This document shows, piece by piece, positions 15,440 to 24,834 of a stretch of DNA of 64,000 nt. The DNA lies in the NCBI GenBank assembly GCA_943330745.2, contig CALQIX020000001.1, forward strand, positions 62,001 to 126,000. Direction: 5' to 3'. How positions within the stretch are numbered: the first letter of the stretch is position 1; each line of letters begins with the position of its first letter. The notes under the pieces are model-generated. The model did no database searches and was not told the DNA's origin. It saw only the letters and a program-made list of their open reading frames with translations. The translations under genes and the position numbers were made by a program. The DNA is from Lishizhenia tianjinensis. Its GTDB lineage: Bacteria; Bacteroidota; Bacteroidia; Flavobacteriales_D; Crocinitomicaceae.

Positions 15440-17626
15440 ATGGCTACAAAAAGATTGCGTGCGTACCAAGATGTGTTGAATAGAGAACCAAAACACATTG
15501 AATATGATGGTAAATTATCTGAATTATTTGGCAAAAATGTTTTTCATGCTGAAGTAATGCGTGAGTATTTGCCGTCGGAGACCTACAAGTCGATGATGGA
15601 ATCTATTAACAACGGCAAACGATTGGATCGTAAAAATGCGGATCAAGTAGCTTCATCCATGAAAGATTGGTCTATATCAAAAGGCGCTACTCATTATACA
15701 CATTGGTTTCAACCGCTTACAGGAGCTACGGCAGAGAAACATGATGCTTTCTTTAAACCAATTGGTCCGGGAAAAGCAATCGAACGATTTGATGGTGAAA
15801 TGTTGGTTCAGCAAGAGCCGGATGCATCTTCATTTCCAAATGGAGGCATAAGAAATACATTTGAAGCACGAGGTTACACCGCATGGGACCCATCTTCACC
15901 GGCATTTGTAATTGGAAAAACGCTTTGCATTCCAACCATTTTTATTTCCTATACTGGCGAGTCCTTAGATTATAAAATGCCCTTATTAAAAGCCCTTCAT
16001 GCAGTTGATACAGCAGCTGTTGAAGTTTGTCAATATTTTGATAAAAATGTTACAAAAGTTAATGCAACATTAGGATGGGAACAAGAATATTTTTTAATTG
16101 ATCAAGCATTATTCAATGCACGTCCTGATTTGATAATGACAGGAAGAGCTCTTTTTGGTCATGCTCCAGCAAAAGGACAGCAATTGGAAGATCATTATTT
16201 TGGCTCAATCCCAGAAAGAGTTACTGCTTACATGCGTGAATTTGAAATGGAATCGTTGCTTCTTGGAATTCCTGTTACAACTCGTCACAACGAAGTGGCC
16301 CCCAATCAGTTTGAATGCGCTCCCATTTTTGAAGAATGTAATTTAGCCAATGACCACAATTTACTTTTGATGGATTTAATGGAGAAAATTGCGCGTAAAC
16401 ATGATTTTAGAGTGTTGCTTCACGAAAAACCTTTCGCAGGAGTTAATGGATCTGGAAAACACAACAATTGGTCTTTGAGTACTAATACAGGCGTTAATTT
16501 GTTAGCACCAGGTAAAAATCCAAAAACTAACCTACAATTCCTTACGTTTTTTGTGAATACAATTAAGGCTATTCATGATCATGCTGATTTACTTCGTGCA
16601 TGTATTGCCTCTGCAGGAAATGATCATCGCTTAGGTGCAAACGAAGCTCCCCCTGCCATAATTTCTGCGTTTATCGGCACTCAATTATCTGGTTTATTAG
16701 ATGACATTGAGAAAAATGTGAAGGCTGGGAAAATGACACCACAAGATAAAACAGAATTAAAATTAAACATTGGTAAAATTCCTCAAATATTACTTGATAA
16801 CACCGATAGAAATAGAACTTCTCCGTTTGCGTTTACGGGTAATAAATTTGAATTTCGGGCAGTAGGTTCCTCTGCAAACTGCGGATCAGCAATGATTGTT
16901 TTGAATACCATCATGGCAAAACAATTAAAAGAATTTAAAAAATTAGTTGATGCTCGCATTGATAAAGGAGAAGCTAAAGACGAGGCGATTCTAAAAGAAT
17001 TACAAGCTATAATTAAACAATCCAAAAAAATTCGTTTTGAAGGCAATGGATATGGCGATGAATGGGTAAAAGACGCTGAAAAAAGAGGCTTAGCCAATTT
17101 AAAAGATACACCGCGCGCTTTGAAAGTATGGCACGATAAAAAAGTAGCCAAATTATTTGATGAAATGGGCGTTCTTTCTCCACGTGAATTAGATGCAAGA
17201 CGAGAAATTGAATTTGAAAACTACATCTTAAAAATTCAAATCGAATCGCGACTTATGGGTGATATCACTCAAAATTATTTTATCCCGGCAACCGTTGAGT
17301 ATCAAAACAAATTGATTCAAAATGTGCAAGGATTAATAAATATTCTTGGTGAAAAAGACGGAAAAGAAGCATCGAAAGCTCAAATGTCATTAATTCAACG
17401 TATTTCAGAACATATGAACGCGATGAAATCAGCTTCAGATAACATGCTCGTTCAACGTAAATTAGCAAATAAAATTGAAGAAGCGGAAGAAAAAGCCATT
17501 GCATATTGTGACCATGTAAAATCAACTTTTGAAGAAATTCGATACCACGCTGACAAATTAGAATTATTGGTAGACGATGAATTATGGCCATTACCTAAAT
17601 TCAGAGAAATGTTGTTTACTCGATAA
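15440..17626 (+). CDS. glnN: Glutamine synthetase type III
   Basis: 728 residues, the long GSIII form typical of Bacteroidota and cyanobacteria (types I and II are 350-470). GSIII features are WFQPLTGATAEKHDAFF, WDPSSPAF, GWEQEYFLID, FECAPIFEECN and the ammonium/glutamate-site region GVNGSGKHNNWSLST. The helical C-terminal ~150 residues are also present. It makes glutamine from glutamate, ammonia and ATP. It is flanked by a C-rich repeat pair upstream and a perfect terminator downstream, so it forms a single-gene unit. Confidence 0.96.
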   Translation: MATKRLRAYQDVLNREPKHIEYDGKLSELFGKNVFHAEVMREYLPSETYKSMMESINNGKRLDRKNADQVASSMKDWSISKGATHYTHWFQPLTGATAEKHDAFFKPIGPGKAIERFDGEMLVQQEPDASSFPNGGIRNTFEARGYTAWDPSSPAFVIGKTLCIPTIFISYTGESLDYKMPLLKALHAVDTAAVEVCQYFDKNVTKVNATLGWEQEYFLIDQALFNARPDLIMTGRALFGHAPAKGQQLEDHYFGSIPERVTAYMREFEMESLLLGIPVTTRHNEVAPNQFECAPIFEECNLANDHNLLLMDLMEKIARKHDFRVLLHEKPFAGVNGSGKHNNWSLSTNTGVNLLAPGKNPKTNLQFLTFFVNTIKAIHDHADLLRACIASAGNDHRLGANEAPPAIISAFIGTQLSGLLDDIEKNVKAGKMTPQDKTELKLNIGKIPQILLDNTDRNRTSPFAFTGNKFEFRAVGSSANCGSAMIVLNTIMAKQLKEFKKLVDARIDKGEAKDEAILKELQAIIKQSKKIRFEGNGYGDEWVKDAEKRGLANLKDTPRALKVWHDKKVAKLFDEMGVLSPRELDARREIEFENYILKIQIESRLMGDITQNYFIPATVEYQNKLIQNVQGLINILGEKDGKEASKAQMSLIQRISEHMNAMKSASDNMLVQRKLANKIEEAEEKAIAYCDHVKSTFEEIRYHADKLELLVDDELWPLPKFREMLFTR

Positions 17627-18998: not shown

Positions 18999-19772
18999 GT
19001 GAAATCAATTTATAAGTATTTATTAAACACGCTGCCTCGGCCATTGTTAATTCGGCTTAGTTATATTTTCAAGTTTTTCGCTCCCTATTTATACCGTGGA
19101 AATAAGGTAACTTGTCCCGTTTGCGAAAAATCCTTTTCTACTTTTTTATCCTACGGTTCTTCCGTGGCTCATCGAGAAAATGTGCTATGTCCTTATGATT
19201 TAACGTTGGAACGCCATCGGTTGATGTGGCTTTATTTAAAAAATGAAAGTGATTTCTTTACGGCTAACAAGATAAAAGTTCTACACATCGCGCCAGAACA
19301 GTGTTTTTACAGTAAATTCAAAGCCCAAAAAAACCTTGACTACCTAACAGGAGATCTTGAATCACCGCTTGCTGATCTTCATTTCGATCTTCATCATATT
19401 CCACTAGAGGACAATCAATTTGATGTCGTTTTTTGCAATCATGTTATGGAGCACGTGGATGACCCAATTCAATGCATGACTGAATTATTTCGTGTAATGA
19501 AAATTGGAGGCTGGGCAATTATGCAAGTTCCTCAAGATTTTTCAAGAGAAACAACCTATGAAGATGCAAGCATTACAAGCCCAGAAGACCGCGAAAAACA
19601 CTTTTGGCAAAAAGATCATGTTCGACTCTTCGGGAAAGATTACCCTCAATGGCTTGAGAAAGCAGGGTTTTCAGTAGACGTTTTCGAATTAACTAATCAT
19701 TATGACCAAGAAACAATTGATAAATTTAGATTGATGCAAGGAGAACTTTTATACATTGCACGAAAAAAGTAA
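18999..19772 (+). CDS. SAM-dependent methyltransferase with N-terminal zinc-ribbon-like motif
   Basis: 257 residues. Residues ~35-70 hold a CPVC pair and a later CPYD, a possible small zinc ribbon of the kind seen in bacterial sugar or lipid methyltransferases. A class I methyltransferase fold follows: KVLHIAPEQ (motif I region), YLTGDLESP, FDVVFCNHVMEHVDDP (motif IV, Methyltransf_11 type) and GGWAIMQVP. The substrate is unknown. The start is GTG; a -7 box lies only four bases before it, so an internal start (for example TTG 19044) is possible. Confidence 0.8.
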   Translation: MKSIYKYLLNTLPRPLLIRLSYIFKFFAPYLYRGNKVTCPVCEKSFSTFLSYGSSVAHRENVLCPYDLTLERHRLMWLYLKNESDFFTANKIKVLHIAPEQCFYSKFKAQKNLDYLTGDLESPLADLHFDLHHIPLEDNQFDVVFCNHVMEHVDDPIQCMTELFRVMKIGGWAIMQVPQDFSRETTYEDASITSPEDREKHFWQKDHVRLFGKDYPQWLEKAGFSVDVFELTNHYDQETIDKFRLMQGELLYIARKK

Positions 19773-19849: not shown

Positions 19850-20836
19850 ATGAAGTCAATAATAGCTCACCTCATCCTATTAGTAATAAGTACTTCAACT
19901 ATTTATGCACAGAAGAATATTTTTTTAGAAATCGCTCCGGTTTTTCAGAACGCAAATCTGCAAATGAATGTTAATTACACCGGATGGGATGGAAAAACAT
20001 TCAAACTAGACCATTTTGATTACTACTTATCTGAACTTCAAATAACACATGATGGTGGTCAGATTACGGTAATTGATTCCGTGTTTTTAGTTGAACCTCA
20101 AAATCACACCTTATTAGTCGGTAACTACCCGATCAATCAGATTGAAAAACTTAATTTCATGGTTGGTGTTCCCAAACCGCTAAATACACAAAATGGAGCG
20201 AACGCAATTGACATTTCACTTTATCCTGAAAATCACCCATTAAGTTTTCAAACGCCATCTATGTATTGGGGATGGCAAGCAGGATATATGCATATGATTA
20301 TTGGAGGGTATGCAGACGATAATAGTGACGGGAATTTAGAGGCCTATTTTGAATTACATAATTTAGGGAATAATAATCAGCAACTAGTTGAGATTCTGAA
20401 TATTGTTCAAACCAATTCAGCCAATGACCAAATTGATGTTTATTTAACTTGTCATGTCGACCGATGGATTAATAATATTCCATTGAGCACCGTTGGAATC
20501 TTGCACGATCAGGTTGGAATAAATGCTACAATACTTGACAATGTAGTAACGGAAACTGTATTTTCTCAATTATCAACAGCTCAATTAACGTCAAATAAAA
20601 CAAATAAAACGGCTTATTTTGTGAATCATTCAGATGAATTAGAGTTTATTTGGCAGTCCATCAATAACCTAAATAAGTTACTTATTATGGACATGAATGG
20701 AAAACTTGTAACATCGATTAACACCCAAGAAACAAGTGGAAGTATTCGAATTAATTCGATTCCAACTGGAGTATACACTGTAAGCTTATTTGATAATCAA
20801 GCGAATTTAATTGGTCATTTTCGAGCAATTCATTAA
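19850..20836 (+). CDS. MbnP/MopE-like copper-binding family protein with type IX secretion sorting domain
   Basis: 328 residues: signal peptide (ends near IYAQ), MbnP domain (~22-245) and a C-terminal ~65-residue domain. The MbnP hallmark is SMYWGWQAGYMH (Trp140, Trp142), preceded by KLDHFDYYLSELQI. The tail reads LLIMDMNGKLV...INSIPTGVYTVSLFD, the pattern of the type A T9SS sorting domain, so the protein is probably moved to the cell surface. In MopE, CorA and MbnP, copper binding involves kynurenine made from tryptophan; whether Trp140 or Trp142 is modified here is inference. It is the first gene of a seven-gene operon; its di-heme partner starts 6 bases downstream. Confidence 0.8.
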   Translation: MKSIIAHLILLVISTSTIYAQKNIFLEIAPVFQNANLQMNVNYTGWDGKTFKLDHFDYYLSELQITHDGGQITVIDSVFLVEPQNHTLLVGNYPINQIEKLNFMVGVPKPLNTQNGANAIDISLYPENHPLSFQTPSMYWGWQAGYMHMIIGGYADDNSDGNLEAYFELHNLGNNNQQLVEILNIVQTNSANDQIDVYLTCHVDRWINNIPLSTVGILHDQVGINATILDNVVTETVFSQLSTAQLTSNKTNKTAYFVNHSDELEFIWQSINNLNKLLIMDMNGKLVTSINTQETSGSIRINSIPTGVYTVSLFDNQANLIGHFRAIH

Positions 20837-20842
20837 AGCAAT

Positions 20843-21841
20843 ATGAAATCAGCCACTAAATTTTTACTTTTTATTGGTGTTTGTTTATTGTTTTTTCTGA
20901 AATGTTCAGTTATAAAACCATTTTCGGTAGAAATTAGTCAAATTCCAACACCTTCAGAAAATCCAATTACTGCCGAAAAAATAGCCTTCGGTAGAAAATT
21001 ATTCTTTGACAAGCGATTATCACTCAATGAAACTGTTTCTTGCGCAACTTGTCACGTACCGGAATATGCTTTTACGGATCGTAAAAAAACAAGTGAAGGC
21101 ATATTTGGTAGAACTACCACCCGCAATTCACCATCCATTTTGAATTCCGCCTTTTTAAAAACGGTAATGTTTGATGCTCATTTACCAAGCCTTGAAATGC
21201 AAGTGATTGTTCCTATTCAAGAACATACCGAAATGGGTCACAACATGAAAGATTTGATCCAAAAATTGAAAAACATTCCCGAATACCAAGCTGAGGCTAA
21301 AAAAATATTTAACCGCGATTTTGATGCTTACGTCTTGACTCGTGCCATTTCTGCTTTTGAAAGATCCTTGATTTCAATGAACTCTAAGTACGATCAATTC
21401 ATGCGAGGAAATCAAAATGCACTTACGCCACTCGAAAAAGCTGGAATGAAATTGTTTACTGAAAAATTGTATTGTGTTCAATGCCATCCCCCACCCTATT
21501 TCACTACATTTGAAGCTCAAAACAATGGGTTATATAAAGAATTTGGAGAGGATAAAGGTAGATTTAGGATTCATTTAGATTCAGCAGACATCGGAAAATT
21601 TAAAATCCCTTCACTTCGAAACATTGAATTAACTTATCCCTATATGCATGATGGTAGTTTGAATACTATCGATGAAATTATTAATCATTATAAAAAAGGT
21701 GGACAAGGAAACCAATTGCAATCCAAACTAATTCAACCCATTAAAATTAGTACCCAAGAACAAAAGCAACTGAAAGCTTTTCTTTATGCTTTAACAGATA
21801 CTAGTTATATGACTGAAATGAATTTTCGTGAACGCAAGTAA
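20843..21841 (+). CDS. Di-heme cytochrome c peroxidase family protein, MbnH/MauG-like (copy 1)
   Basis: 332 residues with an N-terminal membrane anchor or signal ending near Cys21. Two c-type heme sites are visible: CATCH (Cys67-His71) and CVQCH (Cys211-His215). FGRKLFFDKRLS, TRNSPSILN and YPYMHDGSL are conserved CCP/MauG family features. At the position of the inter-heme Trp (FWDGR-type motif) it has VMFDAH, so Phe110 replaces Trp. MauG and MbnH oxidise residues of a partner protein rather than acting as simple peroxidases; the adjacent MbnP gene suggests the same here. The missing Trp makes the chemistry uncertain. It acts in the periplasm. Confidence 0.85.
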   Translation: MKSATKFLLFIGVCLLFFLKCSVIKPFSVEISQIPTPSENPITAEKIAFGRKLFFDKRLSLNETVSCATCHVPEYAFTDRKKTSEGIFGRTTTRNSPSILNSAFLKTVMFDAHLPSLEMQVIVPIQEHTEMGHNMKDLIQKLKNIPEYQAEAKKIFNRDFDAYVLTRAISAFERSLISMNSKYDQFMRGNQNALTPLEKAGMKLFTEKLYCVQCHPPPYFTTFEAQNNGLYKEFGEDKGRFRIHLDSADIGKFKIPSLRNIELTYPYMHDGSLNTIDEIINHYKKGGQGNQLQSKLIQPIKISTQEQKQLKAFLYALTDTSYMTEMNFRERK

Positions 21842-21868
21842 CAACCCAAAGAATCAACTAAGTAAAGG

Positions 21869-22423
21869 GTGGAGGAAAAAGAAATAGTAAGTGAATTAAA
21901 GCAAGGAAACATTCAAGTTTTCAATTATGTTGTTGATTTGTACTCTGCTATGGTTTATTCTGTATGCTTCAATTTAGTTGGAAATAAGGAGGAAGCTGAA
22001 GATATTACACAAGAGGTATTTATTTCAATTTGGTTATCCATTGATTTTTTTAAAGGCGAGAGTCAATTAAAAACTTGGATTTATCGCATTGCAATGAATA
22101 AATCAAACGAGTTAATCCGCCGAAAAAATCGTAAAAAGCGATCCGGTAAAATGATACCAATTGAAGATGAATCTCTGCCGCTAACATCCACAGAACAAAC
22201 ACCTTTGGAAGAATTAGAATACAAGGAATTGGAGTTAGCTTTTAAAAAAAATTTGATGAAATTACCAGAAAATCAACAAATTGCTTTTATGCTTAATCGA
22301 TTTGAAGGATTAAATTATAAAGAAATTGCCACTGAAATGAAAACATCACATTCAGCGGTTGAATCATTATTGTTTCGAGCGAAAAAAAAACTAATTGAAT
22401 TAATGAAAAAACATTCTTATTAA
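21869..22423 (+). CDS. ECF-type RNA polymerase sigma factor
   Basis: 184 residues. Region 2 is visible as NKEEAEDITQEVFISIW and LKTWIYRIAMNKSNELIRR; region 4 as MKLPENQQIAFMLNRFEGLNYKEIA and HSAVESLLFRAKKKL. No extra domain is present, as in ECF factors held by a membrane anti-sigma factor. GTG 21869 is the only reasonable start. It lies 27 bases after the first di-heme gene and 35 before a small membrane protein, inside the MbnP/MbnH operon, so it likely controls this operon in response to the envelope sensor encoded downstream. Confidence 0.92.
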   Translation: MEEKEIVSELKQGNIQVFNYVVDLYSAMVYSVCFNLVGNKEEAEDITQEVFISIWLSIDFFKGESQLKTWIYRIAMNKSNELIRRKNRKKRSGKMIPIEDESLPLTSTEQTPLEELEYKELELAFKKNLMKLPENQQIAFMLNRFEGLNYKEIATEMKTSHSAVESLLFRAKKKLIELMKKHSY

Positions 22424-22458
22424 AACAAGATTTCGAAAAAAATAAACACTAATAATAC

Positions 22459-22728
22459 ATGATAGAAAAAGATACTATTTTGAATGATTTCCTGGAAGGC
22501 CGGTCGTTCAAAAAAGAAAATCCATCAAATGAACTTGTTCTCAAGCTCAAAGAAATCCCTTTGAAATATGAGCGAAATTTAGGTTCAACTATGAATTGGA
22601 TTTTATTGCTTGCTGTAGCTTGTTTTATTGGATTTATGGTAGTTAATTTGAGGCATTTGAATCAAACCAATGAAGAAAAAAACCTTTTTGAAGGACAAGT
22701 AACCAACTATGATTATTTTAGCATATGA
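22459..22728 (+). CDS. Small single-pass membrane protein, candidate anti-sigma factor (CnrY-like position)
   Basis: 89 residues: a ~44-residue charged, presumably cytoplasmic segment, one membrane helix (~46-64, NWILLLAVACFIGFMVVNL), and a ~25-residue periplasmic tail. It lacks the zinc-binding HxxxCxxC motif of ZAS anti-sigma domains. Size, topology and place between an ECF sigma gene and a periplasmic sensor gene match CnrY of the nickel/cobalt CnrYXH system, where a short cytoplasmic peptide wraps the sigma factor. There is no recognisable sequence similarity, so the role is inferred from context. Its stop overlaps the next start (ATGA, 22725-22728). Confidence 0.65.
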   Translation: MIEKDTILNDFLEGRSFKKENPSNELVLKLKEIPLKYERNLGSTMNWILLLAVACFIGFMVVNLRHLNQTNEEKNLFEGQVTNYDYFSI

Positions 22729-23153
22729 GACCAAATTTACTTTTTAAAATCATCATTGTATTGCTATTAATCAGTAATGGTTTTACGTTGTTTTTATTAA
22801 TAAAACCTGGCAAACCCCATCACCCGCCATTTCTGTCAGAGAAACTTGGATTATCGGGAGATCAATTGAAAAAAGCTAAGAAAATGGAGCTATCCCATTT
22901 CGATCAAATGAAACCACTTGACCTTAAAATCGAGAAATTACATGCAGATTTATTCCTATCTATCACATCAAATGACAAAAGGAAAGAAGACTCATTGAAG
23001 TCTTTGATAAGTTCTAATATTATTAAAAAAGACGAACTCTTATTAGCCCATTTCAAAAAAATATATGCACTTTGTAATTCATCACAGCAACAACTTTTTA
23101 CTACGGAACTAAAAGAGCACTTTTCAAGACGAAAACACCCACCCAGAAAATGA
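22725..23153 (+). CDS. Periplasmic CpxP/Spy/CnrX-like metal or stress sensor
   Basis: 142 residues. An N-terminal uncleaved helix (~8-26) anchors a helical periplasmic domain. The pattern LGLSGDQLKKAKKME followed by long charged helices is that of the heavy-metal-resistance/periplasmic-sensor family (CpxP, Spy, ZraP, CnrX). Possible metal ligands are His32/His33, the His58-x3-Met62 pair and the His-rich C-terminus (HFSRRKHPPRK). CnrX senses Ni/Co through His, Glu and Met residues and frees the sigma factor via CnrY; an analogous role here is inferred from gene order. It is coupled by ATGA overlaps to both neighbours. Confidence 0.75.
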   Translation: MRPNLLFKIIIVLLLISNGFTLFLLIKPGKPHHPPFLSEKLGLSGDQLKKAKKMELSHFDQMKPLDLKIEKLHADLFLSITSNDKRKEDSLKSLISSNIIKKDELLLAHFKKIYALCNSSQQQLFTTELKEHFSRRKHPPRK

Positions 23154-23815
23154 AACTGCTATTTTTAGCTGCCTTTATCGTGGTATCTTTCTATACCATT
23201 TCCCAAATTACCTGTAGGTTTGAAATGAATGATTCCACGTTAAAAACCGGCGAGAAAGTTCAATTTAATAATGATACTTCTTGGATTCAAATTGACGAAC
23301 TTAAATTTTACATCCAGTATTCTCCCTTTTTTTCGGATGAGAAGATCAATGGAGGAAGTGTCATTCATTTGATTGATGTGAATGATTCGCTCACTTATCA
23401 ACTTCCTTTTACGGAAGATGGCGCGCATTCGAACTCAATGTTTCAATTTGCCATTGGAATTGATAGTGTTTCCACGATGCAAACTCAGTTTTCTGGCGCA
23501 TTAGACCCCAGCTTAGGAATGTACTGGGCGTGGAATACTGGCTATATTCATTTAAAACTAGAGGGGAAATCTAATTTAAGTATTCAACGAAACAATGAAT
23601 TCCAACTTCATATTGGAGGATATAGTTTAAAAAACAATACGCAGAGATGGTTGGAAACAAAACTTAAAATAGTAGATGGAAAACCAAAATTAATTTTTGA
23701 TTTAACTAAATTTGTCTTAGAGACGGTAAATTTTCAGAAATCACCTATGATTATGATACCTGGAATTGAGGCAGTACAAATCGCGAATGGTTTTCATAAA
23801 TTAGTTCATCCATGA
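23150..23815 (+). CDS. MbnP/MopE-like copper-binding family protein (copy 2, no sorting domain)
   Basis: 221 residues. A hydrophobic signal segment of ~20 residues precedes the MbnP domain. The hallmark motif is GMYWAWNTGYIHLKLEG with Trp126 and Trp128, and IQIDELKFYIQ corresponds to the first conserved strand. Unlike copy 1, it ends without a T9SS domain, so it should stay in the periplasm or on the membrane. It overlaps the sensor gene upstream and the di-heme gene downstream by 4 bases each, which ties it to both. Copper binding and Trp-to-kynurenine conversion are inferred from the family. Confidence 0.82.
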   Translation: MKLLFLAAFIVVSFYTISQITCRFEMNDSTLKTGEKVQFNNDTSWIQIDELKFYIQYSPFFSDEKINGGSVIHLIDVNDSLTYQLPFTEDGAHSNSMFQFAIGIDSVSTMQTQFSGALDPSLGMYWAWNTGYIHLKLEGKSNLSIQRNNEFQLHIGGYSLKNNTQRWLETKLKIVDGKPKLIFDLTKFVLETVNFQKSPMIMIPGIEAVQIANGFHKLVHP

Positions 23816-24834
23816 AAGTTGGAAGTATTTTTCTCAGTTTGTTTTTGATTTTAGTTCTCTTTTTATCCTTCCAATCTTTAAAACCAAAAATGGGTTTCGA
23901 AATACCCAAAGGATGGCCCAAACCTTTATACTATTTTGATGGAAATGAGTATACAGAAGAGAAATTTCAACTCGGCAGAAAATTATTTTACGATCCAATT
24001 CTATCCAGAGACAATACGATTTCTTGCGCCACATGTCATGTTTCATTTTCTGGATTTGCACATACTGATCATTCATTAAGTCACGGAATTGATGGTAGGA
24101 TCGGCCGGAGAAATGCACCTGCGCTTATAAATATGGCATGGAATCCTTATTTCAACTGGGATGGGTCCATGGGTAATATAGAACGGCAATCTATGGAACC
24201 CATTCGGCATCATGATGAAATGGATTTTAATTTAGATTCAGCAGTTGCGCGATTAAGTTCCGATAAAAAATACGCTGCATTATTTCGTGAGGTTTGGGGA
24301 GTTGATCAAATCACCGTTCGACGAATGATCCAATCTTTAGCGATGTTCACGGCAAACTTGGTTTCAAGCAATTCAATCTATGATAAGGTGATGCGTAAGG
24401 AAGCCGGTTATTCATTTACTACACAACAAGAAAATGGATATCGATTATTCAAAAAAGAATGTGCCTCTTGCCACAAAGAACCTTTATTCACAAACTATAA
24501 ATTAAAAAGTAACGGATTACCAATGGATCCTTTCCTAAAGGATTATGGTAGAGCGGAATTTAGTGAGTCTTACAAGGATTCCTTTCTTTTCAAAGTCCCA
24601 ACCCTAAGAAATATTGAATTCACCTTTCCATATATGCACGACGGAAGATTTAAAAAATTGAAAGATGTTCTGAATCATTATGCGAATTTGGATCCTAAAA
24701 CTAACCATTTGAGCAAAGAGCTAAAAAAGATAAAGAAACTTTCTTCGAACGAACAAAAAGATATAATCGCATTCTTATATACATTAACGGATAAAGAATT
24801 CTTATATAATCCGCGATATCAATTTCCTAGGTAA
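23812..24834 (+). CDS. Di-heme cytochrome c peroxidase family protein, MbnH/MauG-like (copy 2)
   Basis: 340 residues with a short hydrophobic N-terminus. Heme sites are CATCH (Cys72-His76) and CASCH (Cys217-His221). The inter-heme Trp is present (Trp116 in FNWDGS), as expected for MauG-type electron hopping and unlike copy 1. FQLGRKLFYDPILS, RRNAPALINMAW, RHHDEM and FPYMHDGRF are family features. The likely substrate is the MbnP protein encoded immediately upstream. The stop codon abuts the stop of the convergent EnvC-like gene with no spacer, so this is the end of the operon. Confidence 0.88.
   Translation: MKVGSIFLSLFLILVLFLSFQSLKPKMGFEIPKGWPKPLYYFDGNEYTEEKFQLGRKLFYDPILSRDNTISCATCHVSFSGFAHTDHSLSHGIDGRIGRRNAPALINMAWNPYFNWDGSMGNIERQSMEPIRHHDEMDFNLDSAVARLSSDKKYAALFREVWGVDQITVRRMIQSLAMFTANLVSSNSIYDKVMRKEAGYSFTTQQENGYRLFKKECASCHKEPLFTNYKLKSNGLPMDPFLKDYGRAEFSESYKDSFLFKVPTLRNIEFTFPYMHDGRFKKLKDVLNHYANLDPKTNHLSKELKKIKKLSSNEQKDIIAFLYTLTDKEFLYNPRYQFPR

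Follow-up and report, generated by a model that had tools for sequence, protein, structure and literature searches.

Seven genes encode two MbnP-MbnH pairs and a probable regulatory relay

The window analyzed here is a 64,000-nucleotide stretch of the Lishizhenia tianjinensis genome (GCA_943330745.2, contig CALQIX020000001.1, positions 62,001 to 126,000). It contains seven plus strand genes between positions 19850 and 24834, which encode two pairs of MbnP- and MbnH-type proteins and, between the pairs, an extracytoplasmic function (ECF) sigma factor, a probable anti-sigma factor and a membrane-anchored sensor. The genes are separated by gaps of 6, 27 and 35 bases, followed by three 4-base overlaps. 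Comparison with related genomes indicates that the window holds two neighbouring units, the genus-wide pair MbnP1-MbnH1 (unit A) and a five-gene relay module that includes MbnP2 and MbnH2 (unit B). A promoter-like site lies between the two units, and the same motif is found upstream of an unlinked gene for a YHYH protein. The features of the locus are:

19850..20836, plus strand: MbnP1, WxW-type, with a probable C-terminal type IX secretion system (T9SS) sorting tail (PF20243, 91.3 bits; TIGR04183, 25 bits)
20843..21841, plus strand: MbnH1, di-heme MauG/cytochrome c peroxidase (CCP)-like, with Phe at the position of the MbnH2-type Trp (PF03150, 175.7 bits)
21832..21861, plus strand: promoter-like site ACGCAAGTAA-N13-CAACTAA, found with a matrix trained on relatives, 37 nt before the sigma start and overlapping the mbnH1 stop codon
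21869..22423, plus strand: ECF sigma factor with a GTG start (PF04542 and PF08281)
22459..22728, plus strand: probable anti-sigma factor of 89 aa with one transmembrane (TM) helix and a CnrY-like layout
22725..23153, plus strand: membrane-anchored periplasmic sensor with a predicted CnrX-like fold (AlphaFold model and Foldseek) and conserved H58, H109 and C117
23150..23815, plus strand: MbnP2, WxW-type, of the relay-linked clade; its model matches 7l6g (PF20243, 84.4 bits)
23812..24834, plus strand: MbnH2, di-heme MauG/CCP-like, Trp kept (PF03150, 177.5 bits)
18999..19772, plus strand: methyltransferase (Pfam Methyltransf_11), the upstream neighbour of MbnP1-MbnH1, outside the relay

The open reading frame (ORF) coordinates reproduce exactly the order, gaps and overlaps given in a first-pass annotation of this DNA, and a hidden Markov model search bears out its MbnP and MbnH assignments (Pfam cut-offs: 27 bits for PF20243, 25.6 bits for CCP_MauG PF03150). 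Both MbnPs match NCBIfam TIGR04052 below the curated cut-off (36.7 and 26.6 against 140). The same is true of both MbnHs and TIGR04039 (258.5 and 199.6 against 362.85 bits), and they are therefore regarded as MbnH relatives and not as members of the NCBIfam equivalog. Each MbnH has two CxxCH hemes and a MauG-like domain and adjoins an MbnP gene. The MbnP1 tail passes TIGR04183 (cut-off 23), and its Pfam counterpart remains below the cut-off (22.4 against 27). Sigma-70 regions 2 and 4 were both detected in the sigma gene product. The genome contains three MbnP genes, the third of which lies on another contig with an MbnH-like gene directly after it. A sigma-70 promoter scan yielded 19 sites, where shuffled sequence had 25.3, and a terminator scan three, where shuffled sequence had 3.7; these were set aside.

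The central genes resemble the CnrYXH relay

The window sigma factor is 38-46% identical to the module sigma factors of eight loci of the same genus (L066-L073). The 89-aa protein matched no family above the cut-off in Pfam or NCBIfam. Among the related loci, a small ORF lies between the sigma and sensor genes in all 54 loci that have both, with strong TM hydropathy in 53, and the one-TM protein is probably the anti-sigma factor.

The AlphaFold model of the sensor has a predicted local distance difference test score (pLDDT) of 86.8. Foldseek comparison with the PDB placed CnrX in 14 of the first 15 rows (probability 1.00, TMq 0.54-0.61), with a best E value against CnrX of 0.02 and no row at E <=0.001. 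This likeness emerged from the fold comparison, as a profile search against PDB sequences gave chance matches only. In a sequence alignment of 58 sensors, H58 is kept in 54, H109 in 38 and C117 in 53, and position 113 is Ile, Val or Leu in 57. Because an aliphatic residue follows four positions after His109 and a Cys eight after, the ligands probably differ from those of CnrX. The data support assignment of the trio to the CnrYXH type; sigma binding and metal-triggered release would then proceed as in CnrYXH.

The five-gene module recurs across Bacteroidota

Genes for the ECF sigma factor, the one-TM anti-sigma factor, the CnrX-fold sensor, MbnP2 and MbnH2 recur together across Bacteroidota, usually followed by a gene for a T9SS-tailed YHYH protein. 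Genome contigs were scanned with an MbnP2 alignment drawn largely from relay-linked MbnPs, which favours these, yielding at least 592 pattern matches, at least 573 of them confirmed; the best 80 loci were kept, and removal of a fragment (L094) left 79. MbnH adjoins MbnP in 78 of the 79 loci. An ECF gene precedes MbnP at a distance of up to 2.5 kb in 48 of the 65 loci with at least 2 kb of upstream flank (ECF and sensor in 46/65), and YHYH is found downstream in 50 of the 59 loci with at least 3.5 kb on that side. Merging near-duplicate loci at 70% MbnP identity gave 51 clusters, in which the counts were 31/47 for ECF, 30/47 for ECF plus sensor and 36/42 for YHYH.

A multicopper oxidase gene directly follows MbnH in 7 of the 80 loci; redoxin and then YHYH genes come next in four of these, and in three no YHYH gene occurs before the end of the stretch. 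The oxidase also appears after YHYH in one more locus and on the opposite strand in another. The one multicopper oxidase checked in Pfam carries a T9SS tail. For YHYH, the best match in the PDB had an E value of 0.021, over the C-terminal part.

Some loci deviate in other ways. YHYH lies upstream of MbnP, not downstream, in L225 and L235, and seven loci from relatives at the order level (L012, L017, L021, L027, L030, L031, L033) have a second MauG-like ORF, cut at the locus end, directly after MbnP-MbnH. By eye, a superoxide-dismutase-like gene was seen upstream of one MbnP2 locus (L024:2241-2918, plus strand). Metagenome-bin records titled Chitinophaga, Rhizobium and Bifidobacterium (e.g., L077, L107, L123) carry a Bacteroidota locus, and these titles look unreliable.

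The MbnP2 model (pLDDT 85.8) has as its six best PDB matches the six chains of M. trichosporium MbnP (7l6g), the sole structure at E <=0.001. The MbnP2 profile found nothing among PDB sequences at E 0.01, and a broader MbnP profile reached 7l6g at E 0.13. WxW and one His are invariant in 14 diverse MbnPs. For the 80 loci the frequency of WxW is biased, since the motif was itself part of the pattern used for the scan. Among PDB entries the MbnH profile matches 6e1c best; the entry is named 'Di-heme enzyme', and we take it to be MbnH. MbnP binds copper, and a study from 2021 reportedly found kynurenine in it. One further MbnP-MbnH pair (L025, genome G012), whose MbnH is 56% identical to MbnH2, has no relay genes in about 1.4 kb upstream and no clear motif of the kind described below (best score 5.4).

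Unit A occurs without the relay in relatives

MbnP was present in 58 of 60 surveyed genomes (our own, 36 from its genus and 23 from its order). Within the genus, 32 stretches surrounding long MbnP genes were fetched; 30 remained when the sister species (G014, L045) and a locus with another MbnP type (L056) were set aside. A methyltransferase gene lies upstream of MbnP1 in 29 of the 30, the exception being L040, without one in 2.3 kb. No module-type ECF gene was found beside MbnP1-MbnH1 in any of the 30 loci; the sequence extends 1 kb or more beyond MbnH1 in 27 of these and ends sooner in three.

The motif MYWGW is present in 31 of the 32 long MbnPs (L045 and L056 included). All 28 MbnH1 proteins compared (L045 included, L056 excluded) have Phe where MbnH2-type proteins have Trp (73/75), and the two pairs of the window may therefore differ in chemistry. 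In MauG, the Trp matching this position sits between the hemes.

In L066-L073 the ECF, anti-sigma, sensor, MbnP and MbnH genes occur together without MbnP1-MbnH1, the anti-sigma gene being judged mostly by its place. Among the loci examined, the window and the sister species alone have the two units side by side; in the latter, L045 keeps the gene order with six proteins 88-96% identical and MbnH2 beyond the contig end. Since each unit occurs alone in relatives, the five-gene order is best regarded as the conserved arrangement and the seven-gene order as a junction specific to this lineage. The CnrYXH-like relay recognized in the first-pass annotation agrees with the fold comparison and the small one-TM ORF, and its genes are recurrently linked to MbnP/MbnH, as ECF genes recur upstream of MbnP, the opposite of the neighbourhood result named there as a refutation.

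A promoter-like motif precedes the sigma gene and YHYH genes

Upstream of sigma genes, GCGCAAGTTT with at most one mismatch was found in 21 of 51 loci, whereas mononucleotide shuffles averaged 0.2. A matrix (a 10-mer, a fixed 13-base spacer and a CATCTAA-like box; threshold 14) was built only from 14 sites of relatives, all upstream of sigma genes. Scored with this matrix, position 21832 reaches 15.4, the highest value of all window positions on both strands (next 11.0), and the sister genome has a site scoring 18.4 at the same 37-base distance before the sigma gene.

In the relatives' loci, comprising 1.63 million positions, 84 matches scored at least 14: 26 before ECF genes (training sites included), 29 before YHYH, two before MbnP and 27 elsewhere. 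Twelve of those elsewhere lie, by coordinates, just past the ECF stop, and the motif was found in the gap between ECF and anti-sigma genes in 12 of 55 loci. A site is present upstream of 29 of 60 YHYH genes, and no YHYH site was in the training set; in a smaller YHYH table 11 of 28 genes (our own included) score at least 14. In two named strains with the module, Flavobacterium terrisoli PT-3 and F. aurantiibacter TH167, the motif before YHYH falls slightly short of the threshold (13.3 and 12.5) and the sigma gene has none, which makes these strains better suited to studying the relay than its sigma promoter. The motif was absent before the long MbnP genes of all 32 loci fetched with MbnP1, and the best score before mbnP1 is -4.3 in the window and 2.1 in the sister species. 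Some clades have a variant, AAGGATT...CGTCTA; with 140 matches in 1.63 Mb it is too common to be more than weak evidence. An earlier matrix with a variable spacer, in which two -10 boxes were misplaced, was discarded; it ranked the sigma site second (15.3), behind minus-strand position 16394 (21.1).

The single YHYH gene detected in our genome (C1:19439-20818) lies some 64 kb away from the sigma gene. Its upstream region contains a site scoring 18.3 with the relatives' matrix, about 45 bases before the likely ATG. For sites in our own genome this matrix is an independent test, unlike the search patterns described below. Beside this YHYH gene a superoxide-dismutase-like gene was noted by eye (L074:2645-3655, minus strand).

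Proposed function of the module

We favour, with a probability of roughly 0.66, a model in which a self-regulated CnrYXH-type relay controls one MbnP-MbnH pair (unit B) plus YHYH, with unit A being separate. Gene order, families, predicted folds, conservation and motif placement come from the analysis itself; the metal, the direction of the signal, sigma release, promoter activity, Trp modification and export are inferred. The ECF sigma factor would be held at the membrane, restrained by the one-TM anti-sigma factor and the periplasmic sensor. When the sensor meets a metal, probably copper, the grip of the anti-sigma factor would loosen, and the freed sigma factor would start transcription from its own promoter inside the mbnH1 end and from the unlinked YHYH promoter. 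MbnH2 would modify the WxW Trp of MbnP2 (kynurenine in studied relatives), whereupon MbnP2 would bind the metal, and YHYH would be exported through the T9SS. MbnP1-MbnH1 is probably not under control of the relay.

Several observations weigh against this model. Half of the sigma genes (26/52) and 31 of 60 YHYH genes have no site at the threshold; the YHYH gene of G003 is one without a site (best 4.3), and the window gap between sigma and anti-sigma genes has none either (best 2.6). Unit B could also be expressed by read-through from an mbnP1 promoter. In our genome of 3.06 Mb the pattern CGCAAG-N15-TCAACTAA has just two exact matches, one before the sigma gene and one before YHYH, and no one-mismatch site, which speaks for the model; the pattern was, however, composed after both sites were known, and with two mismatches it gave 22 sites against 31 for a reversed control. 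The looser CGCAAGT-N15-CANCNAA matched 22 sites when one mismatch was allowed (reversed control, 15). Its exact matches are at the sigma gene and at the unexplained site C2:142578-142606 (minus strand, L156), and YHYH is among the 20 one-mismatch sites. As a control of the spacing, a spacer one base longer gave no exact genome match and two with one mismatch. For Met123, foremost among the metal ligands of CnrX, the alignment of 58 sensors shows no clear equivalent. Beyond the bias of the survey query, 395 Bacteroidota genomes drawn evenly included 62 with a match, and only 5 of 30 loci inspected (our own and four genomes from four other families) had ECF and sensor within about 1.5 kb; the relay link is thus recurrent yet confined to a part of the MbnP family.

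Of the candidate metals copper is the likeliest; the MbnP family and the multicopper oxidase in operon variants both point to it. That the system handles another metal, such as iron, manganese or zinc, is unlikely, though it is the alternative that fares best; both the multicopper oxidase and the copper binding of MbnP argue against it. The functional analogues MopE and CorA also bind copper (PMC3912023), whereas CnrX senses Co and Ni (PMC7689651) and a Zn site has been predicted for YHYH in phages (PMC7824862). As to the trigger, the precedents differ: CnrX-type relays turn on upon metal binding (PMC7689651), which would favour excess, and MopE and CorA are copper-repressed (PMC3912023), which would favour shortage and is a further point against a CnrX-type induction. 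Metal-dependent switch-on together with the multicopper oxidase after MbnH (7/80 loci) leans toward metal excess over acquisition.

Still less probable is a relay that detects misfolded or unmodified envelope proteins, as in CpxP/Spy-like stress, with MbnP and MbnH as stress targets and not metal handlers. CpxP and Spy do appear in the fold list of the sensor, at ranks 21 and 24, and the sensor has a match to PF13801 below the cut-off (15.2 against 29.2 bits); however, CnrX occupies 14 of the first 15 rows, the periplasmic part of the sensor has conserved His and Cys residues, and the seven loci mentioned have a multicopper oxidase after MbnH. The weakest alternative is the first-pass proposal of one seven-gene operon for copper acquisition or sensing in which the relay governs both pairs: the tight spacing of seven co-directional genes and their order in the sister species (MbnH2 beyond the contig) fit it, but mbnP1 lacks the motif in the window, the sister and all 32 loci, sites are found at the junction of the units and ahead of YHYH, and MbnP1-MbnH1 has no sigma genes beside it in any of the 30 other loci, so that control of both pairs is unsupported and a single seven-gene system was rejected.

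A wider version of the favoured model is about evenly balanced between true and false: a Bacteroidota-wide regulon in which the CnrX-type sensor and sigma factor would drive kynurenine-forming MbnP-MbnH, T9SS-exported YHYH and sometimes a secreted multicopper oxidase, for copper handling at the surface, with YHYH as an unrecognized metalloprotein.

Comparison with known systems

The relay shares with CnrYXH of Cupriavidus metallidurans an ECF sigma factor, a short one-TM anti-sigma factor and a membrane-anchored CnrX-like sensor (by predicted fold) in one cluster; CnrY belongs to the class II anti-sigma factors (PMC7406223). The gene order differs, being H-Y-X here and Y-X-H in cnrYXH, as read from its name. 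The targets differ as well, since CnrYXH acts on a resistance-nodulation-division efflux pump and the candidate targets here are MbnP-MbnH, YHYH and sometimes multicopper oxidase.

With the Methylosinus MbnP-MbnH, the 'metallo-mystery pair', the module has in common adjacent genes of the same families, WxW, the MbnP fold (7l6g) and the di-heme relative 6e1c. In Methylosinus, isolated pairs have MbnI-MbnR of the FecI/FecR type and a TonB-dependent transporter nearby (PMC3621798), whereas the sigma partners here are CnrY/CnrX-like. An ECF neighbour of MbnP-MbnH was therefore already known, but of another type. The same source calls MbnP-MbnH mysterious partners that are conserved far beyond methanobactin producers.

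MopE and CorA, with SACCP and CorB, likewise combine a copper-binding protein with a co-transcribed di-heme MauG-like protein; their Trp is oxidized to kynurenine, and the partners are proposed to carry out this oxidation (PMC3912023). They show no marked sequence similarity to MbnP (PMC3621798), and differ from the proposed module in being copper-repressed; the excerpts on MopE/CorA do not mention an ECF relay. A further comparison is CorE of Myxococcus xanthus, a copper-dependent ECF sigma factor that responds through its own C-terminal extension (PMC10141476), unlike the separate sensor and anti-sigma factor here. In jumbo phages, a metal-dependent hydrolase function has been predicted for YHYH (PMC7824862); the excerpts of PMC7029224 and PMC11992049 name the domain and give no function relevant here. 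No published description of the module arrangement was found among the literature matches listed, in which subscription journals are thinly covered.

The conserved sensor, sigma factor and motif offer a direct route to the signal answered by MbnP-MbnH pairs and to the proteins acting with them, and the poorly characterized YHYH family becomes tied to MbnP-MbnH chemistry. Two named strains, Flavobacterium aurantiibacter TH167 (L133) and Flavobacterium terrisoli PT-3 (L151), carry the module, which is therefore probably testable in culture.

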